A stretch of DNA of 64,000 nt, from the NCBI GenBank assembly GCA_025056305.1, contig JANWWJ010000027.1, positions 1 through 64,000 of the forward strand. Reading direction: 5' to 3'. Below the pieces are notes generated by a model. It saw nothing but the letters and a program-made list of their open reading frames with translations, did no database searches and had not been told where the DNA came from. Shown here in pieces: positions 19,866 through 36,428 of the stretch. How positions within the stretch are numbered: the stretch's first letter is position 1; the number at the start of each line of letters is the position of its first letter. The translations under genes and the position numbers were made by a program. The stretch comes from Chitinophagales bacterium (GTDB lineage Bacteria; Bacteroidota; Bacteroidia; Chitinophagales; UBA10324).

Positions 19866-19879
19866 TGCAATACTGTACC

Positions 19880-20820: not shown

Positions 20821-22263
20821 GTGGTCTTTAACTCATTTGCCTTTCTGGTATTCTTTCCGGTGGTCACCACCATCTACTTCCTTTTGCCCCACCGATGGCG
20901 GTGGCTTCACCTGCTCATTGCCAGCTGCGTCTTTTATATGTTTTTTATACCCATCTATATTTTGATTCTCGTTTTCACCATTATCATCGATTATTTCGCC
21001 GGCATATGGATTGATCAGGCGCAAGGCTCGCGGCGCAAGCTTTATTTACTTATGAGTATCGTGGCCAACGTCGGCGTACTGGCTGTTTTTAAATATTATA
21101 ATTTTTTTATTGATAACATCAACCTGATCGCCCAGTGGCTGGGCATGAACCCCGACCTGAAGTATTTGAACATCATTCTGCCTATTGGCCTGTCGTTTCA
21201 CACGTTTCAGGCCATGAGCTATACCATCGAAATTTACCGGGGCAACTTCAAACCGGTGCGTGATTTTGGCATCTATGCCCTTTATGTGATGTTCTACCCC
21301 CAGTTGGTGGCTGGCCCCATCGAGCGGCCTCAAAATCTCATTCATCAGTTTTACGAAAAGCACGAGCTGGATTACCGGCGCGTGGTCAGTGGCCTGAAAA
21401 TGATGTTGTTGGGCCTGTTTATGAAGGTGGTCATTGCTGATCGGCTGGGGGCTTATGTGTCCAATGTCTTCAACTTTCCCCGCTCCCACGACGGAGAGCC
21501 GCTGACTTTCTGGGTGGCCGCGTGGTTTTTTGCCATTCAACTTTACTGCGACTTCGGCGGCTACAGTCTCATTGCTATCGGTTCAGCTCGCGTCATGGGT
21601 TTTACCCTCATGACCAACTTCCGTCGGCCTTACCTGGGGCAATCCGTAGGAGAGGTTTGGCAACGGTGGCACATCTCGCTGACCAGTTGGTTCCGCGACT
21701 ATGTTTTCAATCCGTTAGGCGGCTATCGCAAAGGCAAGTGGCGCGGCATTTTTAATCTGGGCGTGCTGATGTTTTTGGCCGGTCTGTGGCATGGGGCCAA
21801 CTGGACCTATGTGCTGTGTTTCATGGTGTTTTTTGTCTTTCTGGCCTCTCGCCTCATCTTGCGCCGTCAGATCGAATGGTTCGACAAAAAAGTTTACGGC
21901 ATTCATCCGTTGTTTGGCAGAATCGTGAACACGATACTGGCTTTCCATTGTGGTATTTTTTCATATGTGTTTTTCCGATCTGGTTCGGTCAGTGATGCTC
22001 TGTATTATTACAGCCAAATGTTCAGCTTTGCCAGCTTCCGCTTTTATGAGGGAGATGCCTCTACCTTGTGGTATGGGATTTTCGGCATTGTCCTGTTGTT
22101 TGCCTTGGAAGAATGGCAAGAGAACTATGCCAAGCAAAAAGATGCTGTTTTTCCGGAGCCAAAGTCCAAGGCGGCAAAATTCGTGTTTTACGCAGCCATC
22201 ATTACGGTCATTTTAACCCTGGGGGTGTTTGATGCCAGTCAGTTCATCTACTTCCAGTTCTGA
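20821..22263 (+). CDS. MBOAT-family membrane O-acyltransferase (AlgI/DltB-like)
   Basis: A 480-residue multi-spanning protein from a GTG start. The first residues, VFNSFAFLVFFPVV, are typical for AlgI-like MBOATs, so the GTG is credible. About ten or more hydrophobic segments are visible. Conserved signatures: GLSFHTFQAMSY, LVAGPIERPQNL, WQRWHISLTSWFRDYVFNPLGG, and the putative catalytic His324 in GLWHGANW. The family moves acyl groups, usually acetyl, across the membrane to exopolysaccharides or teichoic acids. It overlaps the SGNH-like gene by 32 bases, the usual two-gene arrangement in which an MBOAT passes the acyl group to a periplasmic SGNH/AlgJ-type enzyme. Inference: O-acetylation of the locus polymer. 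Confidence 0.92.
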   Translation: MVFNSFAFLVFFPVVTTIYFLLPHRWRWLHLLIASCVFYMFFIPIYILILVFTIIIDYFAGIWIDQAQGSRRKLYLLMSIVANVGVLAVFKYYNFFIDNINLIAQWLGMNPDLKYLNIILPIGLSFHTFQAMSYTIEIYRGNFKPVRDFGIYALYVMFYPQLVAGPIERPQNLIHQFYEKHELDYRRVVSGLKMMLLGLFMKVVIADRLGAYVSNVFNFPRSHDGEPLTFWVAAWFFAIQLYCDFGGYSLIAIGSARVMGFTLMTNFRRPYLGQSVGEVWQRWHISLTSWFRDYVFNPLGGYRKGKWRGIFNLGVLMFLAGLWHGANWTYVLCFMVFFVFLASRLILRRQIEWFDKKVYGIHPLFGRIVNTILAFHCGIFSYVFFRSGSVSDALYYYSQMFSFASFRFYEGDASTLWYGIFGIVLLFALEEWQENYAKQKDAVFPEPKSKAAKFVFYAAIITVILTLGVFDASQFIYFQF

Positions 22264-23356
22264 GCGCACCGGGCGCCACGACCTGCGGGTGCTGCTGCGC
22301 AACGCCTTGTTGCTGTTGCTGGTCGTAATTGTTTTTGACCAGCTCGGTGGTCTGGTGCTTCGCTTTTTGTATTTCCAGCAAAAGTCAGGACCGAATGCCG
22401 AAACCACTTATTTGTTTACTGCCATGAAGGCAGACGGCCTGATTTTGGGTTCTTCTCGAGGCCGCCGCAACTATAACTCGCTGACTTTGGCAGATACATT
22501 GGGTTTCAAAGTTTACAACGGCGGCCATGACGGGCAGACTGTTTTTTACGAACTGGCCGTGGTGCGCTCGGTGTTGAAACGTTATACTCCGAAGTTGGTT
22601 ATCATTGACCTAAATCCTGAAGAGCTTTATTACAGGGAATTGCATTACGATCGGCTAAATGTGCTCGCCCCTTATTACCGTGACTTTCCAGAAGTACGTG
22701 ATATCTATTTGTTGCGCGGCGTGCGTGATGGCAGCTGGCGTCCGGGCTCGCTGTTTGTAAGCCCTGCCCAACCCTCAAACAACAGTTGGGATAATTTCTG
22801 GTTTCGCATCCACGCGATGGAAGAATACCTGATTCCTATAAATACAGAAAAGATTAAAATGTTATCTGGGATATATCCTTACAACTCCATGCCTCTGGAT
22901 ATCCTATCCGGCATTTTCCGAAAGCGACACTCGCATGCTGGCTTCAAACCGCTAAAAGGCGTCATCAGTAAAAAGAAAGCCGAAGAGCTTATACGGCAAA
23001 ATGCGGCGTTGCGGTTACAACCTGGAAAGCGGGTGGACAAGCATAAAGTGGCAGCTTTGGAGGAAATGATCACGCTCCTTAAACAGCGGGGTGTGGCCGT
23101 GATGGTGGTCATGTCTCCGGCCTTAGCTCCTTTTGGCATGGAGGCTTCTTATCAGACAGTGTTGGACTTGTGTGCCAGACACCAGATACCGTTTCGCGAC
23201 TATAGCCAGGACAGTACCTACCTCGATTTAAAATATTTTTATGACAATCATATGAATTTAGAGGGGGCAACGTTGTTCTCTTCACGTTTGGCCAGCGATA
23301 TCGTCCGCGTGTATTATCCCAACCTCAAACAACAATATGGCCAGCGACCGCGTTAA
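22232..23356 (+). CDS. SGNH-hydrolase-like partner of the MBOAT acyltransferase
   Basis: 374 residues from ATG 22232 (a TTG directly before it is less likely). One N-terminal signal-anchor helix (~20-45, ALLLLLVVIVFDQLGGLVL) leads to a periplasmic domain. SGNH-like features: block I with S74-S75 in LILGSSRGRRNYN, VIIDLNPEE in the middle, and a C-terminal D338-N-H340 (YDNHMNLEGATLFS) that would supply the catalytic Asp/His. I do not recognise a named family; the architecture is like DltD or AlgJ/AlgX-type proteins that work with MBOATs. It overlaps the MBOAT gene by 32 bases and the next sulfotransferase gene by 20. Likely role: final transfer of acyl groups to the polymer in the periplasm. 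Confidence 0.75.
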   Translation: MPVSSSTSSSERTGRHDLRVLLRNALLLLLVVIVFDQLGGLVLRFLYFQQKSGPNAETTYLFTAMKADGLILGSSRGRRNYNSLTLADTLGFKVYNGGHDGQTVFYELAVVRSVLKRYTPKLVIIDLNPEELYYRELHYDRLNVLAPYYRDFPEVRDIYLLRGVRDGSWRPGSLFVSPAQPSNNSWDNFWFRIHAMEEYLIPINTEKIKMLSGIYPYNSMPLDILSGIFRKRHSHAGFKPLKGVISKKKAEELIRQNAALRLQPGKRVDKHKVAALEEMITLLKQRGVAVMVVMSPALAPFGMEASYQTVLDLCARHQIPFRDYSQDSTYLDLKYFYDNHMNLEGATLFSSRLASDIVRVYYPNLKQQYGQRPR

Positions 23357-24227
23357 ACCGAATTTCTTGCTCGTAGGGGCCGGCAAGAGTGCTACCCGTT
23401 CGCTGTACAACTACCTGATCCAGCACCCGGATGTCTTCATGCCTTCTTTGAAAGAACCGCAATTTTTCGTGGCTCGAGAAGTGGCTGGCCGCATTCAGAA
23501 ATGGGTGGATGATGAAGAAACGTACTTTCGGCTCTTTGCTCCCGGTGCCGGCAAAAAAGCCATCGGGGAGGCCAGCGTTATGTATTTGCTTTTTTACCAA
23601 GAGGCTATTAAAAATATTTTACACTACCTGGGCAATCAGGTACGCATCATGATGATTTTACGTAATCCGGTCGATCGAGCTTATTCCGCATACAATTTTG
23701 TGCATCTGAATAATCCTGCTGAACGGTATTCTTTCGAAGAGGCCCTGCAATTGGAGGAAGAGCGTTGGCGCCAAAAAGAATCTTTATTCATGCAATATAA
23801 ACGTATGGGCCTTTATGCCGATGCGGTACAAGCCTACTTAAACCATTTTCCGCATGTGCACATCATGTGGTACGATGAATTTCGTCAGAACCCCGCTCAG
23901 GTGCTCAAGGGCGTATTTGAATTTCTTGGATTGCGATCCGATGTACCTATCGATTACTCAAAAGTTTGGAACAAAGGAGGGAGAAGGTGGAAAAATCCAT
24001 TGATCCGATGGCTGCTCATGTCTGATAACTGGATCAAGCGCATCTTAAAAATGTTCTTTCCGCGACGGCGGGGCGTGCGCACCCATGCATTCTTCACTCA
24101 AAATTTCATGCAACAAATTGAACCCATGAAACCCGAGACGCGGAAAATGCTCATTGAATATTTCCGGGCCGATATCCTGCGCCTGCAACAGATCACGGGT
24201 CGTGACCTCAGCAGCTGGCTGCAGTAG
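23337..24227 (+). CDS. Sulfotransferase-like protein 1 (variant PAPS loop)
   Basis: 296 residues, with the fold signatures of PAPS-dependent sulfotransferases (Sulfotransfer_1/heparan-sulfotransferase-like). The 5'-phosphosulfate-binding loop at 14-22 reads GAGKSATRS, where the consensus is (G)xxKSGTT(S/T). The Gly to Ala and Thr to Arg changes are unusual and could weaken or alter PAPS binding. The 3'-phosphate-binding segment RNPVDRAYS (R109, S117) is intact, and the tail GRDLSSWL is shared with the neighbouring sulfotransferases. It is cytoplasmic, with no signal peptide. It would sulfate a sugar of the lipid-linked repeat unit, by inference from context. It overlaps the SGNH-like gene by 20 bases. 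Confidence 0.85.
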   Translation: MASDRVKPNFLLVGAGKSATRSLYNYLIQHPDVFMPSLKEPQFFVAREVAGRIQKWVDDEETYFRLFAPGAGKKAIGEASVMYLLFYQEAIKNILHYLGNQVRIMMILRNPVDRAYSAYNFVHLNNPAERYSFEEALQLEEERWRQKESLFMQYKRMGLYADAVQAYLNHFPHVHIMWYDEFRQNPAQVLKGVFEFLGLRSDVPIDYSKVWNKGGRRWKNPLIRWLLMSDNWIKRILKMFFPRRRGVRTHAFFTQNFMQQIEPMKPETRKMLIEYFRADILRLQQITGRDLSSWLQ

Positions 24228-24245
24228 GTTGTATCTTGTGGGGCT

Positions 24246-25700
24246 GTGGGAGATCCTTCTTTCCAAATAAAACCCGACCGGTCTGCCTCAGGCCAACCCG
24301 ACCGACATCGGCAGGAGTTAGTGCGGGGCGGCATTTCTGCTTTTTCATTACGGCTGGTGGGCATGGCGGTCAACTGGGTGTTTGCCATCATGGTGGCACG
24401 CAGTACCGGTGCTGCCGGTACCGGCGTGTATAACCTGGTGCAGACCGTGCTGAATTTTTCCAGTACCATTTCCAAGCTGGGTGCCGACACGCTGATGACC
24501 CGCTTTGGGGTGCAGTACTTTATGCAACGGCAATGGGGGAATATCAAAGATTTATTCAATAAAAATATTTTGGTTTCGGTGCCCCTGTCGTTGCTGTTGT
24601 CGGCCGTTATTTTTTTTCAAGCTGACGAAATCGCTGCACACATCTTTACCAAGCCAGAGCTGGCACCTTACTTTCAGGTGGGTGCCCTGGCTTTATTACC
24701 CCTTACCGTTTTCCAGATAGCCACCGGCGGCATTCGTGGCCTCAAAAAAATCCGGCAATACGCTTTTCTGCACAATGTCAGCAATTTCCTGTTTGGCATC
24801 TTCATTCTGGGTGGCATCTTGCTGTTGACCACTCGGCGTGATCCCATGATTGTGGTGATCACCTACATCACCTTCATCACGCTGACGGCATTACTCAGCA
24901 TCTACTGGTTCTTTGTGTATTCGCACTATTTCAAAACGATGCCTTCGCAGGGCATTCAGTTCCGCGAAAAGTTCTGGGTGGGCATGTCGTTGTTTGTGGC
25001 TTCGTTGGCATCGCTGGTGCGTGGCTATGCCGATACGCTGATTTTATCGCGATTTGCATCCATGGAAGAAGTGGGTATTTACCGAAATGCTTTTAAAGTG
25101 GCCACGGTCACCCGTATAGCTTTGATTGCATTGCTGATTCCGGCAGCACCCCAGTTTGCCGAGCTCTATGCGGCTGGCCGTATGGATGAACTGCGCCGTT
25201 CGGCCCAGTTTGTCACCAAAATCATTTTCTGGTGCTCAGCCCCAATCCTGTTGGTCATTTTTGCTGCAGCCCCGCTTATCATGGGCATTTTTGGGAAGGA
25301 ATTTGTTGCCGGAAGCTCGGTGTTGATGGTTTTGGCCGTGGGTCAGTTCATCAATGCAGCCACCGGGCCCGTTAGCAATATTCTCATCATGACAGGCCGG
25401 CAAAAGCTGAATCGCAATCTCATGGTGGCCACCACGGTATTGGCTATAGGCCTCAATTTATGGTTGGTGCCCCTGATGGGAGCCATGGGAGCTGCTATCG
25501 TCAATGCCTTGGGCGTTTTCCTTCTAAACGTCATTCCTTTTTTTCTTATACGCTATTATTACGGCTTTTACACCCTGGACGTGCGCGACCTTTTCCGACT
25601 GAATCCGCGACAGCTACTGCATGATGTACGCGAGGCATTGCGGCGTGATCGGAACCGCAAGCCGCTCGCCAATGACGACGATGAGCCTCTGGCCGAGTAA
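24246..25700 (+). CDS. Wzx-type polysaccharide flippase (MATE/MOP superfamily)
   Basis: A 484-residue membrane protein with about 12-14 hydrophobic segments and the N-terminal motif GGISAFSLRLVGMAVNW followed by VARSTGAAGTGVYNL, characteristic of polysaccharide transporters. It should flip undecaprenyl-pyrophosphate-linked repeat units to the periplasm for polymerisation. A charged C-terminal tail (~460-484) is cytoplasmic. The GTG at 24246 is the first start, 18 bases after the previous gene; a later GTG in LVRGGISAF is possible because residues 1-25 are polar and unlike the family N-terminus. It sits between sulfotransferase genes 1 and 2. Confidence 0.92.
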   Translation: MGDPSFQIKPDRSASGQPDRHRQELVRGGISAFSLRLVGMAVNWVFAIMVARSTGAAGTGVYNLVQTVLNFSSTISKLGADTLMTRFGVQYFMQRQWGNIKDLFNKNILVSVPLSLLLSAVIFFQADEIAAHIFTKPELAPYFQVGALALLPLTVFQIATGGIRGLKKIRQYAFLHNVSNFLFGIFILGGILLLTTRRDPMIVVITYITFITLTALLSIYWFFVYSHYFKTMPSQGIQFREKFWVGMSLFVASLASLVRGYADTLILSRFASMEEVGIYRNAFKVATVTRIALIALLIPAAPQFAELYAAGRMDELRRSAQFVTKIIFWCSAPILLVIFAAAPLIMGIFGKEFVAGSSVLMVLAVGQFINAATGPVSNILIMTGRQKLNRNLMVATTVLAIGLNLWLVPLMGAMGAAIVNALGVFLLNVIPFFLIRYYYGFYTLDVRDLFRLNPRQLLHDVREALRRDRNRKPLANDDDEPLAE

Positions 25701-25729
25701 GCAGATCCGGTCTATGGCAGCCCCGCTGC

Positions 25730-25737
25730 TATCTTCG
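25730..25737 (+). promoter_or_regulatory. Promoter -7 box, TTCG variant (TATCTTCG)
   Basis: Sixteen bases before the ATG of sulfotransferase 2, in the only non-coding gap between 24246 and 27554. Identical to the octamers at 10405, 27566 and 35410. Confidence 0.5.
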
Positions 25738-25753
25738 CACCGCCGCCCCACTC

Positions 25754-26653
25754 ATGCTTCCTAATTTCCTGTGTGTAGGCGCACAAAAGTCTGGTACCAC
25801 CACGTTGGACCAGATCTTGCGTCAGCATCCTGATATTTTTCTTCCGCGCAAGGTTAAGGAGACAAAGTTTTTTGTGTTTGCCGACAGGTATGCGCGGGGG
25901 GTACGCTGGTACGAGCAGGAGTTTTTTGCAGACTGGCAGGGGCAAAAAGCCGTTGGTGAAGTAGATCCGGCCATCATGTTTGAAGAACAGGCGGCCAGCC
26001 GCATCCGCGAAACTTTGGGTACTGAGGTGAAACTGATCTTTCTTTTGCGCAACCCCGCTACGCGCGCTTATTCGCATTATTTGATGAGTCGTCGTCGCGG
26101 ATGGGAAACCCTTTCGTTCTCTGAGGCCCTTCGGGCTGAACCCCAACGCCTAAAGCAGGATCCGGAGCATCGATTGCGGTTCAGCTATCTGGCTCGTGGC
26201 TTTTATGCCTCGCAGGTGGAACGTTTCCTTCGCTCGTTTCCCCGCAGTCATCTTTTGTTTTTGATCATGGAGGAAGATTTTATTCGAAACCGCGAGAAAA
26301 CCTTTCATCGCATTCAGGAATTTCTGAACGTGCCGGTGCGCAAACTGAATCTGGACATTCGCCGCAACGAAGCCGCTGATGTGCGGTTTTCTTGGCTGCA
26401 ACAGTTGGTACGCGCGCGTGGTTGGTTGCGCTCGGCAGCCGCTACGTTACTGCCTCGACGACTGCGGCGGCGCTTGCATCAGGCTGCCGAGCAATGGTTT
26501 ACCGCTCCGGCACGTGACCCGCACCTCAGCACAGAGCTGACTTTGCAGCTCATCCATCAATATTTTTTGGAGGACATTCACAGGCTGGAAACACTCATTG
26601 ATCGTGACCTCAGTTGCTGGTACCAGCACAACGAAGGAAGGCTGCTGGCCTAA
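25754..26653 (+). CDS. Sulfotransferase-like protein 2
   Basis: 299 residues; PAPS-dependent sulfotransferase signatures are complete. The 5'-phosphosulfate loop is Q11-KSGTTT, followed by the QHPDIF and KETKFF segments typical of heparan-sulfotransferase-like enzymes. The 3'-phosphate-binding RNPATRAYSHY has R99 and S107. The C-terminal tail DRDLSCWY is shared with the other sulfotransferases here. It is more Arg-rich in the last third than its neighbours. It has its own promoter box and overlaps the following sulfotransferase frame by about 50 bases. Acceptor unknown; context points to a glycan. Confidence 0.9.
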   Translation: MLPNFLCVGAQKSGTTTLDQILRQHPDIFLPRKVKETKFFVFADRYARGVRWYEQEFFADWQGQKAVGEVDPAIMFEEQAASRIRETLGTEVKLIFLLRNPATRAYSHYLMSRRRGWETLSFSEALRAEPQRLKQDPEHRLRFSYLARGFYASQVERFLRSFPRSHLLFLIMEEDFIRNREKTFHRIQEFLNVPVRKLNLDIRRNEAADVRFSWLQQLVRARGWLRSAAATLLPRRLRRRLHQAAEQWFTAPARDPHLSTELTLQLIHQYFLEDIHRLETLIDRDLSCWYQHNEGRLLA

Positions 26654-27554
26654 TCTGTTGATCGTGGGCGCGGCGAAAAGCGGCACGACGACGCTTCACT
26701 ATGCCCTTGCCCGCCACCCCGAGGTGTTCATGAGCTATAAAAAAGAACCCGGTTATTTCACTTGGCCCGATGAGCCCCTGCAGTTTATCAACAACGGTCG
26801 GCTCATCACCAAACCACGGTTTTTGGTGAATCGAAAGGAAGATTACCTCAAACTTTTTGCCGAAGGGTGCTCTCGGCGCTATCGTGGCGAGTCGTCCACA
26901 ACATATTTGTTTTTTTATGAAAAGACCATAGCCAACATTCGGCGGTTACATCCGGAGCCAGATGCCATCCGTATTCTTATGATCCTGCGCCATCCGGTAG
27001 AACGGGCTTTTTCCCAATACATGCATAAGGTGCGCGATGGTGCCGAACCCCTGACCTTTGAACAAGCCTTGGAACAGGAAAGTTGGAGGCGAACACACAA
27101 TTGGCACTTTGATTATCGATATGTTGAGCGCGGATTTTATTATCCGCAGGTGAAGGCTTACCTGGATCATTTTCCTCATGTGTTGGTATTGCTCTACGAC
27201 GATTTGCGCAACGACACAGCAGCTACGCTGCGGACGGTGCAGCGGTTTTTGAATATTAAGATCATGGAACTGACCTATGAACAAGAGCTGAACGTGAGTG
27301 GGCGGCCGCGCCTGATGGCTTTAAACTGGCTGCTGAAGCAGCCCAACAAGCTGAAATCGCTTGCCGGTGCTTTGATTCCGCCCGCATGGCGTCGTCGCCT
27401 GCGCCTACGGCTTCAATCGCTGGTGTATCGCCACAATTTAGAACGTGAAGTCATCAATCCGGAAACACGCAAGAAATTGCTGGATATGTACGCCCCCGAC
27501 ATCGAGCAGCTTCAAAAGCTGCTGGGTCGTGACCTGTCGGCATGGCTGCGCTGA
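26604..27554 (+). CDS. Sulfotransferase-like protein 3
   Basis: 316 residues from a GTG at 26604 (a TTG at 26598 is possible; there is no ATG before the P-loop). The start is inside the end of sulfotransferase 2, overlapping it by 50 bases in another frame, which suggests translational coupling. Motifs: KSGTT at 25-29 (GAAKSGTTT), KKEPGYF, the 3'-phosphate-binding RHPVERAFSQY (R129, S137), GFYYPQVKAYLDHFP and the tail GRDLSAWLR. The complete motif set predicts an active PAPS-dependent enzyme. It probably arose by duplication within this cluster, since ~20-residue blocks around the motifs match proteins 1, 2 and 4. Confidence 0.88.
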   Translation: MTSVAGTSTTKEGCWPNLLIVGAAKSGTTTLHYALARHPEVFMSYKKEPGYFTWPDEPLQFINNGRLITKPRFLVNRKEDYLKLFAEGCSRRYRGESSTTYLFFYEKTIANIRRLHPEPDAIRILMILRHPVERAFSQYMHKVRDGAEPLTFEQALEQESWRRTHNWHFDYRYVERGFYYPQVKAYLDHFPHVLVLLYDDLRNDTAATLRTVQRFLNIKIMELTYEQELNVSGRPRLMALNWLLKQPNKLKSLAGALIPPAWRRRLRLRLQSLVYRHNLEREVINPETRKKLLDMYAPDIEQLQKLLGRDLSAWLR

Positions 27555-27565
27555 GGTGGCTACCT

Positions 27566-27573
27566 TATCTTCG
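27566..27573 (+). promoter_or_regulatory. Promoter -7 box, TTCG variant (TATCTTCG)
   Basis: Thirteen bases before the ATG at 27587. It argues for that start instead of the in-frame upstream codon at 27542, which would place the box inside the gene. Fourth copy of the octamer family in the locus. Confidence 0.5.
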
Positions 27574-27586
27574 CCGCCGGTTTCCC

Positions 27587-28537
27587 ATGCCTGAAAAACT
27601 TCCCAACTTTTTTATCGTCGGCGCAGCCAAAAGCGGTACCACATCGTTGTATGAGTATTTGCGCCAGCATCCTGAAGTATATATGGCACCCATCAAAGAA
27701 ACGCATCATTTCAGCACCGACCTCAATCCGGATGCCTTCCGCCCCAATTATGCCCGTTCCCTCAATAAGGACATCAGCCGCTGGCTGCAAGGCGACATGA
27801 AAGAGGGCATCTTTCATGCTTTTGTTCGAGACTGGAACCAGTACATGCAATTGTTTCGTTTGGTGACTGATCAAAAAGCTATAGGGGAGGTAACCAATTC
27901 GTACTTGTATTCTTCGGAAGCAGCGGCCAATATTCGTCGGCGATTCCCGCATGCCCGCATCATCATGATGCTGCGCAATCCTGCCGAACGCGCCTTCAGC
28001 CATTATCTGATGGACCTACGCATCGGCTATGAGACCGCCGATTTTATGACGGCACTCAAAAAAGACATGGCCCGCAATCCGAAGGGTTGGGGCATCAGCA
28101 ACATGTACATCGAAATAGGTCAATACGCACAGCAGGTGAAGCGCTACTTGGATACCTTTCCTGCTGAACAGTTACGCATTTATTTGTTTGATGATTTTGT
28201 CCAGAACCCCGAGGAGATCATGCGGGACCTGTTCCGGTTTTTGGGTGTGCGTGACGATGTGCACATTGACTTCAGCCGCCGTTACAATCCCAGCTTCATT
28301 CCCAAAAACCGCTTTATCACCCTGCTCAATGCGCAAAAACGTTTTCGGGACTGGGTCAAAAGCATGTTGCCCCGCTCACTGCGGAGCCGGGCTAAAACCA
28401 TGTTGTTTACAAATAAAAATCTTCCTAAAATGACTGATGAAGAACGCCGGTTTCTGATCGACATTTTCGAGCCAGACATCCGCCAGTTATCCCGATTGAT
28501 CAACCGCGACCTGTCCTCTTGGCTGGCATGCAAATGA
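27587..28537 (+). CDS. Sulfotransferase-like protein 4
   Basis: 316 residues from the ATG at 27587, chosen because the -7 box lies just upstream and because MPEKLPNFFIVGAAKSGTT is a typical family start. Motifs: KSGTT at 15-19, IKETHHF, 3'-phosphate-binding RNPAERAFSHY (R130, S138) and tail NRDLSSWL. Residues ~60-90 (KDISRWLQGD) form an insertion relative to proteins 2 and 3. Cytoplasmic and complete. It overlaps the following glycosyltransferase by four bases (ATGA) and begins a run of tightly overlapping genes that continues to 34909. Confidence 0.9.
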   Translation: MPEKLPNFFIVGAAKSGTTSLYEYLRQHPEVYMAPIKETHHFSTDLNPDAFRPNYARSLNKDISRWLQGDMKEGIFHAFVRDWNQYMQLFRLVTDQKAIGEVTNSYLYSSEAAANIRRRFPHARIIMMLRNPAERAFSHYLMDLRIGYETADFMTALKKDMARNPKGWGISNMYIEIGQYAQQVKRYLDTFPAEQLRIYLFDDFVQNPEEIMRDLFRFLGVRDDVHIDFSRRYNPSFIPKNRFITLLNAQKRFRDWVKSMLPRSLRSRAKTMLFTNKNLPKMTDEERRFLIDIFEPDIRQLSRLINRDLSSWLACK

Positions 28538-29616
28538 CCGCAGCACAGCACCCCAAGGTGTATATCGTTCTGGTCAATTTCAATGGCCATTTCAACACCA
28601 TTGAAACCCTGGAGAGCCTGTCGCGGCAGACCTATCGAAATTTTCAAATAATAGTTGTTGATAATAATACGCCGGAATCCCTGGAATGGATTCGTCGCTG
28701 GGCAAGAGGTGAATGGATCCCTGAATTCAGCCCGCCTGAGCCTATCAAGCACCTGACTTATCCGCTCTGTCCCAAGCCGGTTGTTTATGTTTCTTATGAG
28801 GTAGCGGAAGCCGAGCAAGGAGGTAAGCCAGAGCTGGAACCAGAGCAAGAAGGTGCGTTTTGCTTTCCCCTTATTTTTATTCAAGCCCGAAGCGACATTG
28901 GCTTTGCCGGCGGCAACAACGTGGGGTCCAGGCTGGCACTGGCACGTGGCGATGCCGGTTATGTTTGGTTGCTCAACAACGATACCACGCTGGAGCCCGA
29001 TGCCTTGGAACGGCTCGTTGAAAAAGATCAGGAGTATCGTCGCCAAGGGCGGCGTGTGGGTATCATCGGATCCAAATTACGCTGGTATCGTTGGCCTGAT
29101 CGCATCAACGCCATCGGCGGAAGGTTTAACAAATGGACCACCTGGAGCTATCATTTGGGTTTGAATGAACCCGACCGCGGCCAGTTTGATCACGATGGAG
29201 TTCAATTTGACTATGTCTATGGGGCAAGCTTGTTCGTACGCACGGAATTTCTTCAGGAAGTCGGCCTGATGAATGAAGCCTATTATGCCTATTTTGAAGA
29301 GATGGATTGGGAAGTCAGGGGCCGAAGAAAAGGATGGGAGCATGGATATGCATGGCGTAGCATCATCTATCACAAACAGGGGGTCACCACCGGTAAGGAA
29401 ATTAAAGCGCGCCGCAGGCCGTTGTTCTTCATGTGCTGTAAGTACCGGGGTTGGTTGTTGTTTTACAGCTATTATTACCCCTACCTTATCTTCGCGCCTA
29501 TTCTACGTTTGTTGTTGAAAGCCGTTAAAAATTTATTGGAGGGCAATAGCCGCGAATCGTGGTTGATTCTTAAAATTCTTGCAGGAAAGCGAACGTGCAC
29601 ACGCAACATGAATTAG
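28534..29616 (+). CDS. Glycosyltransferase family 2
   Basis: 360 residues from ATG 28534, which overlaps the previous stop (ATGA); ATG 28528 is an alternative. GT-A fold signs: VYIVLVNFNG at the start, IIVVDNNTPES, the GFAGGNNVG block, the metal-binding WLLNNDTTLEPDAL, and the YFEEMDWEVRGR segment with the acceptor/base region. This is the rhamnosyltransferase-like GT2 group that often acts on O-antigens and capsules. A ~60-residue polar insertion (about 60-115) separates the first two motifs. One or two hydrophobic helices near the C-terminus could hold it at the membrane. Donor and acceptor are not predictable. Confidence 0.9.
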   Translation: MTAAQHPKVYIVLVNFNGHFNTIETLESLSRQTYRNFQIIVVDNNTPESLEWIRRWARGEWIPEFSPPEPIKHLTYPLCPKPVVYVSYEVAEAEQGGKPELEPEQEGAFCFPLIFIQARSDIGFAGGNNVGSRLALARGDAGYVWLLNNDTTLEPDALERLVEKDQEYRRQGRRVGIIGSKLRWYRWPDRINAIGGRFNKWTTWSYHLGLNEPDRGQFDHDGVQFDYVYGASLFVRTEFLQEVGLMNEAYYAYFEEMDWEVRGRRKGWEHGYAWRSIIYHKQGVTTGKEIKARRRPLFFMCCKYRGWLLFYSYYYPYLIFAPILRLLLKAVKNLLEGNSRESWLILKILAGKRTCTRNMN

Positions 29617-30944
29617 CCGGCCCACTGCCTGTAAGGCGGGCAGCCCTCGTCGATGTTTACCGAGCGTTACGCATCCTGGTAGCCTACTTGATTCTGGTGC
29701 GGGTATTCGGCACCATGATCAAGACACCGCTTACCCAATATTACTTTCTCTACGTAGGTCTGCCTTTGCTGTTCCTGGAAATCGGTTTCGGAGTCTTTTA
29801 CGTTTTGGATCGATTACTGGTTCATAAAGGAAAATTCAATGTTTATGAATTCGTTATCATTACCCTTTATGCCTATATGATGCTTCAGGGCGGGCTTGCT
29901 CCCTATTTTTTCTATGGTCAACCCATATTGACCGGTATGACCACCTACAAATTTTGGGGGATGATTTGGGACGGATTGATTGTTTTTTATTTATTGCGTA
30001 TCCGATTTCTGGACTTAACCATCATCCGCGACGCCTTGCTGTTTGGGGCGTGGTTTCAGCTGCCCATTTTTCTGTTGCTCATCTTCACTCTAAATCCTTC
30101 CCAGTATGCCGGCACCCTTTTCGTTTACTGCAATGAAGCTAAGGGTGGATGTCAGTTTGAATTTGAAATATTCTTTTTCTTGTTTGCTTCAATCTACTAC
30201 TACATCCGGCTGATCAAAACCAACAAACTGCACTACGGCCTGTTCTTTCTGATCTTTTTTAGTTATATATTTTTCATCAATCAAAAACGCGGCGTTTCTC
30301 TATCGTTGTTGGCAACGGTAGGTCTGTATTCCCTTTTCCACATGAGCCGCGACAAGCTTATTTACTATTCTTTGTTGGCCCTTTTGGCTGTCAGCATACT
30401 CATCACGGCACTCTATCTGTTCTATCCTGAGGTGCTGCAGCGTATTGTCAACACTTACACCAATGCGTTTATGGCCATCATGGGGGAGCGTACGGGCGAG
30501 GCATCGGCAGATGCACGCATCCGCCAGGGTCTGATTGCCATGAAATATTTAGACCGCTATCCGCTGGGCTGGATTTTTGGCAATGGAAAATTGGATACCG
30601 ATTGGGAGGGAACGCCTGTTGATTTTTTGCGGTTTTACGCCTCTGACCTTGGGGTGTTCGGGGTGATCTTTCAATATGGCATCATGGGCTGGCTCGTTGG
30701 CCTTTCCCTGATGTTCCTGTTTGCGCTGCGTAACCATCAGCGGGTTAAATGGCATCGAAACGAAAGTTTCTACGTAGCTGTCGTGTACTTTATCCTGTTT
30801 TTGTTCATCAGGGGCATTCCTACAGGAGGAAGTTTTTTTGACCCAGGTAGTGCTACAACAGCTACCTTTGTAGGCATACATTACTTTTTTTACTATGCTG
30901 AGTTACATCCGGAACGTGGCTACAAAACCCCGTTGACGGCCTGA
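29595..30944 (+). CDS. Wzy-like polysaccharide polymerase / O-antigen ligase-family membrane protein
   Basis: A 449-residue protein from a GTG at 29595, overlapping the glycosyltransferase by 22 bases. About ten to twelve hydrophobic helices are seen (for example ALRILVAYLILV, YYFLYVGLPLLFLEIGF, LIYYSLLALLAVSILITALYL). A large polar loop before the last third (ERTGEASADARIRQGLIAMKYLDRYPLGWIFGNGK) matches the active loop of Wzy/WaaL-type proteins, including a GNGK/DxG-like segment. It should join repeat units in the periplasm, together with the Wzz-like protein. Polymerase versus ligase cannot be decided from sequence alone; the exopolysaccharide setting favours Wzy. Confidence 0.82.
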   Translation: MHTQHELAGPLPVRRAALVDVYRALRILVAYLILVRVFGTMIKTPLTQYYFLYVGLPLLFLEIGFGVFYVLDRLLVHKGKFNVYEFVIITLYAYMMLQGGLAPYFFYGQPILTGMTTYKFWGMIWDGLIVFYLLRIRFLDLTIIRDALLFGAWFQLPIFLLLIFTLNPSQYAGTLFVYCNEAKGGCQFEFEIFFFLFASIYYYIRLIKTNKLHYGLFFLIFFSYIFFINQKRGVSLSLLATVGLYSLFHMSRDKLIYYSLLALLAVSILITALYLFYPEVLQRIVNTYTNAFMAIMGERTGEASADARIRQGLIAMKYLDRYPLGWIFGNGKLDTDWEGTPVDFLRFYASDLGVFGVIFQYGIMGWLVGLSLMFLFALRNHQRVKWHRNESFYVAVVYFILFLFIRGIPTGGSFFDPGSATTATFVGIHYFFYYAELHPERGYKTPLTA

Positions 30945-31891
30945 TGAGCACAGCATTACCCAATTTGATTATTGCCGGCGTTCATAAGGCAGGCACCACG
31001 TCGGTGTTTACTTATTTGGCTTTGCATCCGCAGGTGTGCGGTTCCACGATTAAAGAGATCGGCTATTTCATGCCCTTGCGTTACGGGGGGCCATTGCCGA
31101 AATGGGAAACATATTTGTCGCACTGGCATCATTGTCGCAATGAAGTCAAATACCGCTTGGAAGCCAGCCCGAGTTATCTATATGGCGGGGAGGCGATAGC
31201 TGAAGCAATTGCTCGGATGTTAGGCCCTGAGGTGCGTATCCTCATCCTGCTGCGTGAGCCGGTGGAACGGCTGTTTTCTTTCTACGAACGGAAAAAGGTC
31301 AACGCTTTCTTACCGTCGCACTTGAATTTCCGCCAGTTTGCTGAACAGTCGCTGCAGCGAGCCGAGTTATTACCCGATTTAGGAGGAGATGATGTGGAAT
31401 CGTTGTTACGCCGTGGCTTTCGCGAAGGATGTTATGTGGACTTCCTTCCCGCGTGGCTGGATCGTTTCGGCCCAAGGCTGCGCTTGATGTTTTTTGAGCA
31501 TCTGCGTCAGGATACAGCCGCATTCATGCGTGACCTTTGCCAGTGGCTGGATTTGGATTTTTCTGCATATCGGCCTCAAGATTTTGCTGTTGAAAATCAA
31601 ACTACCGGCGTGCGCTTCGCTTGGCTACACAGAAGCCTGCTGACTGTCAACAAAAAGTTTGAGGTCTTTTGGCGAAGAAACGTTGGATTAAAACGAACTT
31701 TGCGAAGCCTCTACAAGCGGATCAATGCCGTGGAGAGCAGGCGCGAGCGCCTTGCCGACGATGATCGGCAGTGGCTCGAAACAGCTTATTTGCCCTACAA
31801 CAGGCGGCTGGCAGTCTTGTTGAAACAACAGGGCATTACGACCTGGCCAGAATGGTTAGCAAAAGCTGCATATGCCTCACAACCTGCCTAA
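30944..31891 (+). CDS. Sulfotransferase-like protein 5
   Basis: 315 residues; the ATG shares one base with the polymerase stop (TGATG). Motifs: HKAGTTS at 14-20 with Ala in place of Ser in the 5'-phosphosulfate loop, IKEIGYF, and 3'-phosphate-binding REPVERLFSFY (R104, S112). It is the most divergent of the six locus members: it lacks the RDLSSWL-like tail and ends WPEWLAKAAYASQPA. It may recognise another acceptor position. No signal peptide. It overlaps the next sulfotransferase gene by 20 bases. Confidence 0.87.
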   Translation: MSTALPNLIIAGVHKAGTTSVFTYLALHPQVCGSTIKEIGYFMPLRYGGPLPKWETYLSHWHHCRNEVKYRLEASPSYLYGGEAIAEAIARMLGPEVRILILLREPVERLFSFYERKKVNAFLPSHLNFRQFAEQSLQRAELLPDLGGDDVESLLRRGFREGCYVDFLPAWLDRFGPRLRLMFFEHLRQDTAAFMRDLCQWLDLDFSAYRPQDFAVENQTTGVRFAWLHRSLLTVNKKFEVFWRRNVGLKRTLRSLYKRINAVESRRERLADDDRQWLETAYLPYNRRLAVLLKQQGITTWPEWLAKAAYASQPA

Positions 31892-32756
31892 CTTCTTTAT
31901 CGTAGGTGCACCTAAAGCGGGTACTACATCGCTGTATCAGTACCTGTGCCGCCATCCGGAAGTCTTCATGTCACCCATCAAAGAACCCAATTTTTTCTGC
32001 TACGAGGACACGCGGGCTCAGAACTTATATCACAAAGAAAAAGGGATTGGCGATTGGGATCGCTATGTCCAGCTGTTTGACGGTGCCAACGGAAGCCACA
32101 AAGCCATTGGCGAAGCCAGTGTGGCATATTTGTTTTATCCTAAAGTACCGTGGAGAATCCGGGAAAAAATCCCGGGGGCCCGCATCGTCATATCGCTGCG
32201 CAATCCGGTGGATCGCGCCATCTCTCATTATTTTATGGAGTACAAGCTTGGCTATGTCCATGTGCCTTTAGCAGATATTGTCTTTCGCCGCACCCGGCAT
32301 CCCCGTGCCGCCTTATGGTACCAACAGTATGTAGAGCTGGGGTTTTATTACGAGCAGGTAAAGCGCTACCTTGAGGTCTTTCCACCGGAGCAGGTAAAAA
32401 TTTTTATATATGAAGAATGGATAGCAAATCTTCAAGAAGGTCTTCGCGCTCTTTATGAGTTTTTGCAGCTCAGTACAACATATCTGCCTGAAGGCAATCC
32501 GCGTTACAATCCGTTTTCATTGCCCCGCAACCGGTTGCTTCATTTGCTCTACACGCAGAAGGGACTGCGTCGCCTGGCCCGTATGGTGTTACCTGAAGAG
32601 CTTGTGTACCGGGTCAAGCAGTGGGTTTTGACCAGTAATCGCCCCATGGATGTAGGCGATGAGGTACGGGCTGAGCTCACCCGCCTTTACCGAGAGGATA
32701 TAGCGCGGCTGGAAGACCTGTTGAACCAAAAGCTCACAGTCTGGTATGCAACTTGA
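31872..32756 (+). CDS. Sulfotransferase-like protein 6
   Basis: 294 residues, ATG at 31872 inside the end of sulfotransferase 5. Motifs: PKAGTTS at 14-20, IKEPNFF, 3'-phosphate-binding RNPVDRAISHY (R110, S118), ELGFYYEQVKRYLEVFP (a block nearly shared with proteins 3 and 4), and a tail NQKLTVWY that is a weak form of the NRDLSSWL ending. Probably an active PAPS-dependent enzyme of the same carbohydrate-sulfotransferase-like group. It overlaps the GT4 gene by 11 bases. Confidence 0.88.
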   Translation: MPHNLPNFFIVGAPKAGTTSLYQYLCRHPEVFMSPIKEPNFFCYEDTRAQNLYHKEKGIGDWDRYVQLFDGANGSHKAIGEASVAYLFYPKVPWRIREKIPGARIVISLRNPVDRAISHYFMEYKLGYVHVPLADIVFRRTRHPRAALWYQQYVELGFYYEQVKRYLEVFPPEQVKIFIYEEWIANLQEGLRALYEFLQLSTTYLPEGNPRYNPFSLPRNRLLHLLYTQKGLRRLARMVLPEELVYRVKQWVLTSNRPMDVGDEVRAELTRLYREDIARLEDLLNQKLTVWYAT

Positions 32757-33924
32757 CAACGGGCCGGCCATCGCTATGATAGAGCCCATCGGTGGTCACA
32801 GCGGCAATGATTTCTACGATTTTGGCCTTTGCAAAGCCATTGCCGACCAGGGCATCCGCGTCGTTTTCTACACCTGTGATGAAACTACCCTTGATCAGCA
32901 GTTTGCGTTTTCTTTCCCTACCGTTAAGCCTTACCGCCGCATCTACGGCCGCGATCCCAAGTGGCTGCGTGGCTTTCGCTACGCGGCTGGCTCCTGGCAG
33001 GCAGCAACCCATGCGGCACGTCAAGGCCTCAACATCGCGCACGTGCACATTTACCATTTTGCCTGGCGTGAGCTGCTCAACATAATGTTGTTTCGCCTGC
33101 GGGGGCTACGGATTGTAGCTACCATTCACGACGTGGAAAATTTTGAAACCTTCGGAAACCAGCCGAAGCACACCAATCACGCCGTATTCATGAAGCAGAT
33201 TGACCGAATCGTCGTGCACAGTGAGTATGCAAAACAATGCATATTAAAATACTTTATTAATTACCCTCAGGAACGCATTGATATTGTTCCGCATGGCGAC
33301 ACGGATTTCTTGTTCAAAAATCCTCTCAGCCGCCAGGAAGCACGAGCCCGGTTACAGCTTCCGCAACAAGGCCGCATTGTTTTATTTTTTGGTCAAATCA
33401 AAAAAGTAAAAGGCCTGGACGTATTGTTGCAGGCATGGGTGCATGTCCGACAGCAGCAGCCGCAAGCGCGGCTGGTGGTGGTGGGCAGACCGTGGAAAGT
33501 AGAGCAGCAGCTGTTCGACCAAATCGTAGAACAACATCAATTGCAGGATAGTGTGGTGCTGAATTACCAATACGTTCCCAACGAGCTGATTCCCGTTTAT
33601 TATGCGGCTGCTGACCTGGTGGTGCTGCCCTATCGGGAGATTTACAGCAGTGGCGTGATGGTACGTTCGCTGGACTACGGCGCTGCCATTCTAGCCAGCG
33701 ATCTGCCAGCCTTTCGGGACATCATCACCGATAACGAAAATGGCTTGCTGTTCCGTACAGAAGATTCCCGTCATTTAGCCGAACGGATTTTGGAAGTGCT
33801 CAACGACGACGAGCGGCTGCAGCGTCTGCGGCAGCGGGCAATCGAAACTGCTGAGCGGAAATTTTCGTGGAACTACATAGGCAGCACGATGGCTGATGTG
33901 TACAAAAAAGTATTATATGAATGA
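32746..33924 (+). CDS. Glycosyltransferase family 4
   Basis: A 392-residue GT-B enzyme. Seen: an N-terminal acceptor domain with GGHSGNDFYDFG, the linker motif IDIVPHGD, the start of the C-terminal domain IVLFFGQIKKVKGLDVLLQAW, and the donor-binding region EIYSSGVMVRSLDYGAAILASDLPAFRDII, which keeps the spacing of the usual E-x7-E motif but has lost the second Glu (EIYSSGVMVRS). Retaining sugar transfer to the growing repeat unit is expected. It and the GT2 are the only sugar transferases in the locus core, too few for the number of sugar-nucleotide genes, so others must lie outside the window. Confidence 0.9.
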   Translation: MQLDNGPAIAMIEPIGGHSGNDFYDFGLCKAIADQGIRVVFYTCDETTLDQQFAFSFPTVKPYRRIYGRDPKWLRGFRYAAGSWQAATHAARQGLNIAHVHIYHFAWRELLNIMLFRLRGLRIVATIHDVENFETFGNQPKHTNHAVFMKQIDRIVVHSEYAKQCILKYFINYPQERIDIVPHGDTDFLFKNPLSRQEARARLQLPQQGRIVLFFGQIKKVKGLDVLLQAWVHVRQQQPQARLVVVGRPWKVEQQLFDQIVEQHQLQDSVVLNYQYVPNELIPVYYAAADLVVLPYREIYSSGVMVRSLDYGAAILASDLPAFRDIITDNENGLLFRTEDSRHLAERILEVLNDDERLQRLRQRAIETAERKFSWNYIGSTMADVYKKVLYE

Positions 33925-34909
33925 AGGTGCTGTTGTATGGATTACGGGTGCTGCCGGCTTGGTCGGATCCCACCTTATTGAGGCCTTGCATCAACATGTT
34001 CCGCCTCATCGCCTGATTGGCACGTGGCATCGCCCCACTGTAGATCTGGATGACATCTTGCCGTTATGTACTGCCGAGCCCCTCGACGTTACCGATGGCG
34101 AAGCCGTCGCGGCGAGCCTCAACCGACACCGACCAGAGGTAATCTACCATCTGGCTGCGCAAAGCTATCCCACCGTTTCCTGGGAGCAACCGGTAGAAAC
34201 CATGAACGTTAATATTAATGGAACGGTGCATGTGTTTGAGGCGATTCGCCGCATCCGGCAAGCTGATCGCAGCTATGATCCTATGGTGGTTGTGGCCTGC
34301 AGCAGTGCGGAGTATGGAGCATCGCTAACTCCGGAGCATGTTCCCGTTCGCGAAGATGCGCCTTTGCTGCCCTTGCATCCCTACGGCGTCAGTAAGGTAG
34401 GGCAAGACCTGCTGGCGTTTCAATACTGGAAGAATTTTGGCATCCGCTGTGTTCGCGTCCGCATCTTCAATACCACAGGTCCTCGCAAGAAAAATGATGT
34501 CGTTAGCGACTTTGTGCAGCGGGCTTTTGCCATCAGTCGTGGAGAACAAGAGGTATTTCGTGTAGGTAATCTCTCGACCCGTCGGGCGATTACAGATGTG
34601 CGCGACTTGGTGGCAGCACTTATTTCGTTAGCTCAAAAAGGAGAACCGGGCGAGGTTTATAATGTCAGCGGCGATCGTGTTTACCTGATTGCTGACCTGA
34701 TTCCTTTGGTGGAACGCGCTGCAGGTGTCAAACTGAATGTAGTAGAAGATCCTGCCCTTCGGCGGCCCAGCGATGAACCTGTTATTGTCGGCGACAGCAG
34801 TAAGCTCAAGGCCTGCACCGGCTGGCAGCAGCACTTTACTTTGGAGCAGACCATTCAAGATATGTTCGCTTATTTGCAAAAAAAGGCTGCAATACACATG
34901 CTGCGTTGA
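33917..34909 (+). CDS. GDP-mannose 4,6-dehydratase/reductase-like SDR enzyme
   Basis: 330 residues from ATG 33917, overlapping the GT4 stop by eight bases; an upstream in-frame codon at 33896 would overlap by 29. Extended SDR: GAAGLVGSH near the N-terminus, HLAAQSYPTVSWEQP (a signature of the GDP-mannose dehydratase/RMD branch), CSSAEYG and catalytic Y-x3-K in YGVSKVGQD, then RIFNTTGPRK. It resembles GDP-4-keto-6-deoxymannose reductase (RMD) and Gmd. No second enzyme of a GDP-sugar route is present, so the exact reaction is open. Last gene of the overlapping run. Confidence 0.8.
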   Translation: MNEGAVVWITGAAGLVGSHLIEALHQHVPPHRLIGTWHRPTVDLDDILPLCTAEPLDVTDGEAVAASLNRHRPEVIYHLAAQSYPTVSWEQPVETMNVNINGTVHVFEAIRRIRQADRSYDPMVVVACSSAEYGASLTPEHVPVREDAPLLPLHPYGVSKVGQDLLAFQYWKNFGIRCVRVRIFNTTGPRKKNDVVSDFVQRAFAISRGEQEVFRVGNLSTRRAITDVRDLVAALISLAQKGEPGEVYNVSGDRVYLIADLIPLVERAAGVKLNVVEDPALRRPSDEPVIVGDSSKLKACTGWQQHFTLEQTIQDMFAYLQKKAAIHMLR

Positions 34910-34952
34910 AACGGTTTTTTGTAATTTCCGTAAGCAAGCGAAATCGACAGCT

Positions 34953-35381
34953 ATGAAGGTGCGGGAGATTTTGCGGCAGAAAGGCTCAGCAGTGGTGTCG
35001 GTGCCACCGACGGCCACCGTGCTTGACGCTCTAAAGGTGATGGCAGAAAAAAACATTGGTGGTGTGCTGGTCATGGACGGGGAAAAAGTGCTTGGCATTT
35101 TCACCGAACGCGACTATGCCCGAAAAATCGTTTTAAAGGGAAAGACCTCAGCCGAAAGCCGCATCAGTGAAGTGATGGTCACCGAGCTGGTGACCGTCAC
35201 GCCCGATCACGATACCTCAGACTGCATGAAACTGATGACGACCAATGCCATTCGCCACCTGCCGGTTATGGAAAACGGCAAGCTGGTAGGACTTATTTCT
35301 ATCGGTGATGTGGTAAAGGCGGTTATCGACGAACAGCAATCTACCATTCAACATTTGGAACAGTACATTGCGGGCAGTTAG
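34953..35381 (+). CDS. Two-CBS-domain protein
   Basis: 142 residues, starting at the ATG at 34953; an open frame continues upstream to 34773 but lies inside the previous gene and has no family resemblance. Two CBS motifs: residues ~5-65 (ILRQKGSAVVSVPPTATVLDAL ... GIFTERDYARK) and ~75-135 (VMVTELVTVTPDHDTSDC ... GLISIGDVVKAV). CBS pairs bind adenosyl nucleotides (AMP, ATP, SAM) and regulate partner proteins. As a stand-alone protein its partner is unknown. A link to adenine-nucleotide status from PAPS use would be speculation. Confidence 0.92.
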   Translation: MKVREILRQKGSAVVSVPPTATVLDALKVMAEKNIGGVLVMDGEKVLGIFTERDYARKIVLKGKTSAESRISEVMVTELVTVTPDHDTSDCMKLMTTNAIRHLPVMENGKLVGLISIGDVVKAVIDEQQSTIQHLEQYIAGS

Positions 35382-35409
35382 GCTGCCGTTGCGGGGCAAG
35401 GCGCCCGCG

Positions 35410-35417
35410 TATCTTCG
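35410..35417 (+). promoter_or_regulatory. Promoter -7 box, TTCG variant (TATCTTCG)
   Basis: Seven bases before the ATG at 35424, identical to the boxes at 10405, 25730 and 27566. It shares promoter type with the locus core although sulfotransferase 7 is a different subfamily. Confidence 0.5.
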
Positions 35418-35423
35418 CCATTC

Positions 35424-36428
35424 ATGAATATGATTTTTGTTGTCGGCAACAGCCGCAGCGGCACTACCATGATGGGCCGCATTTTAAACAACCATCCGCG
35501 CATCCATACTTTTCCCGAACTGCATTTTTTTGAACAGCTCTGGTCAACAGCAGATCGACAACGTCGGCTGAACAAGGATGAGGCAGCACGCCTGGCTGCT
35601 TTGCTGCTTAACATAGCCCGGGAAGGCTACTTTGCCCGTCGGCATATTGAAGATTATTTGGCGGAAGCAAAAAAACTGTTGGCCTCAAGCGGGGTATCGA
35701 CTCCTTTGGCCAGCGATGTCTTTGCTGCCGTCGTTCAATACGAAACGCGAAGGTTAGGAAAAGAAATGGGCTGTGATCAGACCCCGCAGAATGTTTTTTA
35801 TATAAAAGAAATACTTGAATTATTTCCAGAATCACGGTTCATTAACATGGTGCGCGACCCGCGCGATGTGCTGTTGTCCCAAAAACGTAAATGGCGGCGG
35901 CGCTTTCTCGGGGGCACACATGCCACGTGGTATGAGACCGTCCGTGCTTGGGTCAACTACCATCCCTATACCATCAGCAGGCTGTGGGTGGCTGCGGTGC
36001 GGGCAGCCAGGCGCATGCAGCACCCTAATGTGCTCACCGTTCAATTTGAACGGTTGCTTGCCCATCCTGATGATGTCATCGCTGCGGTATGTGCCCACGT
36101 GGGGGTGGACTTTTTGGCGGCTATGAAAGAAGTGCCGCAGGTGGGATCATCCAGTGGTCACGACCGAAGTGAGGTTAAAGGAATAAATGCTGAACGTGCC
36201 CAAAGCTGGAAACGCGGCGGTTTATCCCCTACTGAGCTCTGGATTTGCCAAAAGGTGTGCTGCGCGCAAATGGAAGCATTTGGTTACAAACCTGTCGACG
36301 TACGGCCTGATCCCTTGTTGTTGCTGTGGTATGTGTTTCTGTGGCCGTTGAAACTTGCGGCTGCTTTTATCATGAATTTGCATCGCATGAAAAATATTAT
36401 GGAAACGTTGAAAAAACGTTTGAGTTAA
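35424..36428 (+). CDS. Sulfotransferase-like protein 7 (different subfamily)
   Basis: A 334-residue protein with the 5'-phosphosulfate loop RSGTTM at 11-16 (VGNSRSGTTMMGRIL) and 3'-phosphate-binding RDPRDVLLS (R144, S152). These match the Sulfotransfer_3 type rather than the heparan-like group of proteins 1-6. Unlike those it ends with a hydrophobic helix (~297-315, LLLLWYVFLWPLKLAAAFIM) followed by a basic tail, so it may be bound to the inner membrane. It has its own promoter box. It could modify the same polymer or another acceptor such as a lipid or protein. An alternative start at Met3 is possible. Confidence 0.85.
   Translation: MNMIFVVGNSRSGTTMMGRILNNHPRIHTFPELHFFEQLWSTADRQRRLNKDEAARLAALLLNIAREGYFARRHIEDYLAEAKKLLASSGVSTPLASDVFAAVVQYETRRLGKEMGCDQTPQNVFYIKEILELFPESRFINMVRDPRDVLLSQKRKWRRRFLGGTHATWYETVRAWVNYHPYTISRLWVAAVRAARRMQHPNVLTVQFERLLAHPDDVIAAVCAHVGVDFLAAMKEVPQVGSSSGHDRSEVKGINAERAQSWKRGGLSPTELWICQKVCCAQMEAFGYKPVDVRPDPLLLLWYVFLWPLKLAAAFIMNLHRMKNIMETLKKRLS

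Follow-up and report, generated by a model that had tools for sequence, protein, structure and literature searches.

Outside the cyanobacteria, sulfated polysaccharides of bacteria are considered rare (PMC8205485, PMC13390465), and how bacteria make sulfated polymers resembling glycosaminoglycans has been called not well known (PMC10483923). Described clusters for such polysaccharides contain two sulfotransferases (synechan, PMC8205485; wps-1 of Actinoplanes missouriensis, PMC13390465), three (Vibrio sp. KMM 8419, PMC11641403) or one (Pontiella sulfatireligans F21, which makes a sulfated glycosaminoglycan-like exopolymer, PMC7356697). Our analysis concerns a window of 64,000 nucleotides on contig JANWWJ010000027.1 (assembly GCA_025056305.1) of a Chitinophagales bacterium from the phylum Bacteroidota, in which seven sulfotransferase-like genes had been noticed within one exopolysaccharide region. 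All seven open reading frames are in place, and their products score above the Pfam cut-offs of Sulfotransfer_1 (PF00685) and/or Sulfotransfer_3 (PF13469). The initial interpretation largely holds for six of these genes (ST1 to ST6). They belong to a predicted sulfated-exopolysaccharide cluster of the Wzx/Wzy type, whose conserved set of heparan-type sulfotransferases is unusually large and is served by an apparently dedicated pathway for the sulfate donor 3'-phosphoadenosine 5'-phosphosulfate (PAPS). In the open-licence literature no described multi-sulfotransferase exopolysaccharide system from Bacteroidota was found, in agreement with the initial annotation, which knew of none with this many.

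The xss cluster for synechan in Synechocystis sp. PCC 6803 likewise has Wzx/Wzy genes interleaved with PAPS sulfotransferases of the PF00685/PF13469 type, but it combines two sulfotransferases with eight glycosyltransferases, whereas six (or seven) accompany two in our locus (PMC8205485). In contrast to xss, genes for CysQ, an MBOAT protein and an SGNH-like protein adjoin here, and the host belongs to the Bacteroidota and not to the cyanobacteria. The components by which a synechan-type locus is recognized, namely Wzx, Wzy, Wzz, an export gene, glycosyltransferases and sulfotransferases, are all found together in our locus, with a weak, below-cut-off match for Wzz. In the capsule cluster of Vibrio sp. 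KMM 8419, sulfotransferases and PAPS supply also mark a sulfated polysaccharide. However, this is an ABC-transporter capsule with three sulfotransferases spread over an 80-gene locus, cysNDC inside the cluster and a solved polymer structure (PMC11641403). The wps-1 and Pontiella F21 clusters share with ours the prediction of a heparan- or glycosaminoglycan-type sulfotransferase in an exopolysaccharide cluster, but hold only two and one sulfotransferases, respectively, and stem from other phyla (PMC13390465, PMC7356697).

Some Sulfotransfer_3 gene is present in 104 of 389 good Bacteroidota genomes (27%), and mixed-type clusters of two to five sulfotransferases in 20 kb occur elsewhere. The heparan-type profile at E 1e-20 had matches in 38 of 395 sampled Bacteroidota genomes. 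Within 10 kb, the window's genome has six such genes, eight other genomes have at least two, and the rest of those with matches at least one; as at most six candidates per genome were scored (seven in the Sulfotransfer_3 survey), sulfotransferase counts per genome are lower bounds for all Bacteroidota genomes except that of the window.

Predicted sulfotransferases and gene order of the locus

All genes described in the window lie on the plus strand. Between positions 20821 and 34909 they follow the order MBOAT - SGNH-like - ST1 - Wzx - ST2 - ST3 - ST4 - GT2 - Wzy - ST5 - ST6 - GT4 - SDR. Most neighbors overlap by 1-56 bases and the two gaps measure 18 and 53 bases; hence, this stretch resembles one operon. 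The six heparan-type genes are located at 23337..24227 (ST1; PF00685 E 1e-14), 25754..26653 (ST2; PF00685 E 1e-16), 26598..27554 (ST3; PF13469 E 2e-13), 27542..28537 (ST4; PF13469 E 7e-20), 30944..31891 (ST5, the most divergent; PF00685 E 3e-08) and 31872..32756 (ST6; PF13469 E 2e-17). Gene starts in the initial annotation were retained for five of the seven sulfotransferases. ST3 begins with a TTG codon at 26598 instead of 26604, and ST4 begins at 27542, the previously given 27587 being a later in-frame ATG. The flippase, polymerase and glycosyltransferase genes reported as interleaved were recovered as a Wzx flippase (24246..25700; PF01943 E 2e-19), a GT2 glycosyltransferase (28519..29616; PF00535 E 3e-12), a Wzy-like polymerase (29595..30944) and a GT4 glycosyltransferase (32746..33924; PF00534 E 1e-27). 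The Pfam search gave no match for the Wzy-like protein, which was assigned by its position, its hydropathy with six strongly hydrophobic segments, and its conservation in 15 of 16 genomes of the family, and not by a family profile.

ST2 to ST6 share only 26-39% identity with ST1, which characterizes the six as old paralogues. Compared with the PDB, a profile of 18 sequences of the ST1-ST6 type (alignment A2) matched the Alicyclobacillus acidocaldarius structure 3rnl at E 6e-85 and the entire sulfotransferase domain of NDST at E 1e-31; for the 3-OSTs, E ranged from about 1e-23 to 3e-28. By sequence, no solved structure is closer to the cluster's sulfotransferases than the entry 3rnl, titled only 'Sulfotransferase'; in the case of ST4 (41% identity in the aligned part) this is also true of the fold. 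ST1 (E 7e-47) and ST6 (E 3e-51) likewise matched 3rnl; the latter matched 3-OST-1 as well (E about 2e-11). Structure prediction yielded a heparan-type fold for both proteins modeled with AlphaFold. The ST4 model (predicted local distance difference test, pLDDT, 84.6) resembled 3rnl (Z 33.2), 3-OST-3 (Z 23.5) and NDST1 (Z 23.4), and for the ST5 model (pLDDT 85.5) 3rnl tied with NDST1 (Z 25.6). Taken over both models, 3rnl, 3-OST and NDST1 reached Z 22-33, versus Z 11-14 for tyrosylprotein and cytosolic sulfotransferases. All 18 sequences keep the same residues at three sites without exception: Gly/Lys/Thr in the PAPS loop, Lys-Glu in the catalytic site and Arg/Ser in the 3'-phosphate site. In the profile alignment, the Glu of the six sulfotransferases falls on the NDST catalytic position, the place of the catalytic glutamate of NDST and 3-OST.

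These comparisons confirm the assignment of ST1 to ST6 to the PAPS-type sulfotransferases of the heparan-sulfate (NDST/3-OST) group, their activity being predicted. The group was assigned by fold for ST4 and ST5, by sequence for ST1, ST5 and ST6, and only by alignment with these for ST2 and ST3. Fold, PAPS loop and position of the catalytic Glu are common to the cluster enzymes and animal NDST/3-OST, as is a C-terminal L-x-x-W tail in the case of NDST. Unlike the animal enzymes, the cluster enzymes are soluble, bacterial and single-domain proteins without deacetylase domain or membrane anchor. An RDLSSWL-type tail or a weaker form of it had been noticed in five of the six, and this is what we observed: four carry RDLS-W, ST6 carries the weaker QKLTVW, and ST5 lacks the tail. 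The same type of tail ends 3rnl and, in a looser form, NDST; it is thus a trait of the family, and its use as a cluster-specific signature was rejected.

The seventh gene, ST7 (35424..36428; PF13469 E 2e-31), belongs to another, TPST/NoeE-like subfamily, as had been noticed before. It encodes the motifs GNSRSGTT (PAPS loop) and RDPRD-S (3'-phosphate site) and one C-terminal hydrophobic segment, and its sequence is nearer to the sulfotransferase domains of 4gox and TPST and weakly related to NoeE. Since it is of a different subfamily and is separated from the operon by other genes in three relatives (G003, G007 and G008), its membership in the cluster appears doubtful.

Conservation of the locus and age of the gene copies

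As a multi-enzyme alignment (A1) was too diverse for the contig search, the single protein ST4 was used, which yielded two near and two far relatives. The near ones are the metagenome-assembled genomes Chitinophagales bacterium SKYG5 and Bacteroidetes bacterium SZAS-60. Our search of other Bacteroidota genomes, a check that had been proposed with the initial annotation, revealed the same order of six sulfotransferases in five genomes in addition to that of the window, together representing four genera. They share the flanking Wzx, GT2, Wzy and GT4 genes, and the SDR gene where the contig reaches that far. A seventh genome has a matching order in the part that its contig holds. In contrast, complete loci in another genus of the same family (g6) contain only two sulfotransferases, mostly orthologues of ST2 and ST6; up to four are found in the locus in family f14 and one in family f19. 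Most of the two-sulfotransferase g6 loci encode a protein of about 533 amino acids beside ST6 (L091:11723-13321; L089:7943; L094:7069), which is absent from six-sulfotransferase loci and gave no match in the Pfam search.

In an unrooted tree of 76 sequences, each of ST1 to ST6 forms one clade with a Shimodaira-Hasegawa-like approximate likelihood ratio support of 99-100. The wider clades of ST2, ST3, ST4 and ST6 include sequences of other genera or families, that of ST2 both. Thus, the duplications predate the genera. Between two species of the window's genus the nonsynonymous distance (dN) is 0.08-0.23 for the sulfotransferases and 0.08-0.21 for Wzy and the glycosyltransferases; the low values indicate purifying selection on the sulfotransferases. 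The data support six orthologue groups that stayed distinct from one genus to the next, which would be expected of enzymes with one acceptor position each. In the two-sulfotransferase relatives the glycosyltransferases are of the same two types, which suggests a shared locus plan on which sulfation became more elaborate, but because the tree is unrooted a loss of sulfotransferases in g6 is also possible.

The copies may instead be partly redundant or conditional, so that several enzymes share a position and each repeat bears no more than one to three sulfates. Two or four sulfotransferases suffice in related genera, and in synechan one of the two could be deleted with little effect on the exopolysaccharide yield (PMC8205485). 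We consider this unlikely, albeit worth weighing, since the genes at each position of the order form a distinct clade that predates the genera, four of these clades have members outside the six-gene genera, and all six genes are kept in order with intact catalytic residues. The adjacent paralogues of one family could suggest that a single gene was recently duplicated in tandem and that the copies do not differ in function. This, or an assembly artefact, is so improbable that we regard both as refuted, given the low identities, the recurrence of the order in independently assembled genomes and the deep separate clades. Chance clustering was rejected as well, because 7 of the approximately 10 sulfotransferase genes of the genome (2.41 Mb in 44 contigs, 99.5% complete; genome-wide counts of sulfotransferase and pathway genes are from family searches) fall in 13 kb and the order recurs across genera.

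Donor supply and the predicted product

Another contig of the genome carries sat (ATP sulfurylase), cysC (adenosine 5'-phosphosulfate (APS) kinase) and a DASS/SLC13-type anion transporter gene together, and sat and cysC are also side by side in the four relatives examined. In the sister species G001 two neighboring SLC13-type transporter copies were found beside sat-cysC (L134:5001-8800), versus one in the stretch read of the window's genome. Of the 16 genomes of the family, 15, including that of the window, encode APS kinase. The CysH/APR reductase family (PF01507) has no member in this nearly complete genome, in contrast to 14 of 14 control genomes with one; other enzymes of sulfate reduction were not searched. 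PF01507 is also missing in the family genomes G001, G007 and G009. A PF01507 protein is, however, encoded in G003 and G008, two other genomes with the six genes; thus, not every holder of the cluster has lost it. The window's lineage hence produces PAPS without reducing it by the CysH/APR route; the likely use of PAPS there is sulfation, to which the pathway appears to be dedicated.

CysQ, a 3'(2'),5'-bisphosphate nucleotidase, is encoded directly upstream of the operon-like stretch (19838..20677; TIGR01331 287 bits versus a cut-off of 229) and adjoins the cluster in relatives too. It degrades 3'-phosphoadenosine 5'-phosphate (PAP), the inhibitory by-product of sulfation. Further upstream on the same strand are genes for a Wza-like outer-membrane export protein, a Wzz-like co-polymerase and a CpsB/CapC phosphatase (15569..19848; Poly_export/SLBB and CpsB_CapC above cut-off, Wzz weak), which are collinear in relatives. 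They are preceded by genes for an NDP-sugar dehydrogenase (TviB-like), an RmlB dTDP-glucose 4,6-dehydratase and a TviC-like epimerase (12044..15480; TIGR03026 and TIGR01181 above, TviB/TviC models below cut-off), which are a probable sugar supply; their collinearity extends to G007 and, in the part read, to G003. The region 10417-15480, with TviB/TviC-like, RmlB and hexapeptide acetyltransferase genes, provides a hint of amino-uronic and 6-deoxy sugars in the polymer. An NAD-dependent sugar epimerase/dehydratase (SDR) gene (33896..34909; PF16363 E 3e-56) ends the operon-like stretch. The MBOAT membrane O-acyltransferase at its beginning (20821..22263; PF03062 E 6e-25) is 94% identical within the genus. 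The SGNH/AlgX-like protein encoded next to it (22229..23356), with one N-terminal membrane segment by hydropathy and weak, below-cut-off matches to PF13472/PF16822, is a probable partner in O-acetylation.

We consider it likely that the product of the locus is an exopolysaccharide or capsule with several sulfate groups and probably O-acetyl groups as well, assembled in the Wzx/Wzy-dependent manner. After import, sulfate would be converted to PAPS by Sat and CysC, whose genes lie elsewhere in the genome, while the GT2 and GT4 enzymes would build a lipid-linked repeat unit after the action of an unlinked initiating transferase. Hydropathy revealed no strongly hydrophobic membrane segments in ST1 to ST6. 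Therefore, these enzymes are probably cytoplasmic and most simply act before Wzx flipping, each presumably sulfating one hydroxyl or amino position of the repeat unit. The sulfated unit would then be flipped by Wzx, polymerized by Wzy and exported by Wzz/Wza, the PAP by-product would be destroyed by CysQ, and the MBOAT/SGNH pair would add O-acetyl groups. Sulfate on this particular polymer, sulfation before flipping, one position per enzyme and the role of the MBOAT pair are inferred steps of this scheme. The initial annotation had envisaged a polymer sulfated at several positions and similar to glycosaminoglycans; six separate orthologue groups and the donor pathway speak for the former, whereas the likeness to glycosaminoglycans comes from the predicted enzyme fold only, and ST7 is a doubtful member.

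The six enzymes might decorate another product of the locus, such as a lipopolysaccharide O-antigen, the glycan of a secreted glycoprotein or a lipid. Wzx/Wzy systems serve O-antigens too, sorted proteins with Por secretion tails occur in the organism, and small glycolipids are the substrates of rhizobial and mycobacterial sulfotransferases (PMC8205485). On the other hand, the Wza-like protein with SLBB domains, the Wzz-like protein and CpsB are collinear with the cluster in relatives, as in capsule and exopolysaccharide systems, and a ligase-like gene was not identified in the locus, which makes another product improbable.

Several points weigh against the proposed sulfated exopolysaccharide. 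The locus contains only two glycosyltransferases and no initiating transferase for the backbone; two initiating transferases (PF02397) and further GT2 genes are located elsewhere in the genome. CysQ also has housekeeping roles, and saturated synonymous distances render dN/dS ratios rough. It is conceivable that some of the sulfotransferases replace one another at a single position or have a different glycan as their target. Finally, the organism is known from its assembly only.

Further sulfation-related genes and biological implications

Additional candidates were observed in the same genome. On contig C31 (L014:6767-9042) the gene for a further heparan-type sulfotransferase (302 amino acids, C-terminus RDLSHWLIS) comes immediately after that for a flippase-like membrane protein, and the opposite strand carries a GT4-like gene; these genes possibly represent a second small sulfated-glycan locus. 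Contig C16 (L015:1129-3693) encodes an 854-amino-acid protein with an N-terminal alkaline phosphatase/phosphodiesterase-like part, TPR-like repeats and a C-terminal sulfotransferase-like domain, and open reading frames of this length match in several genomes of the family. Four sulfatase genes with the C-A-P-S-R formylglycine motif were found on contigs C33 and C39 (L016, L018, L019, L020). The bacterium may thus trim or eat sulfated glycans, either its own or those of others.

Should the backbone come from the locus itself, about three sugars would be served by six enzymes, resulting in a very densely sulfated polymer. We put forward tentatively, as somewhat less than an even chance, that the exopolysaccharide of this Chitinophagales lineage is hyper-sulfated, the dedicated sulfotransferases outnumbering the backbone sugars that the locus adds. 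Such a system would have arisen by stepwise addition of position-specific sulfotransferases to a common two-glycosyltransferase locus, with the whole of sulfate activation turned to sulfation and no CysH/APR-type assimilation. The series of six enzymes and its natural one-, two- and four-enzyme versions in relatives offer a way to pair sulfate position with enzyme. Biotechnology may also obtain position-specific heparan-type sulfotransferases from the cluster, and the cluster genes may provide markers for makers of sulfated polymers in environmental biofilms and granules. Heavily sulfated polysaccharides are better known from animals, algae and cyanobacteria; our results suggest that an unusually heavily sulfated polysaccharide is made by a Chitinophagales bacterium.

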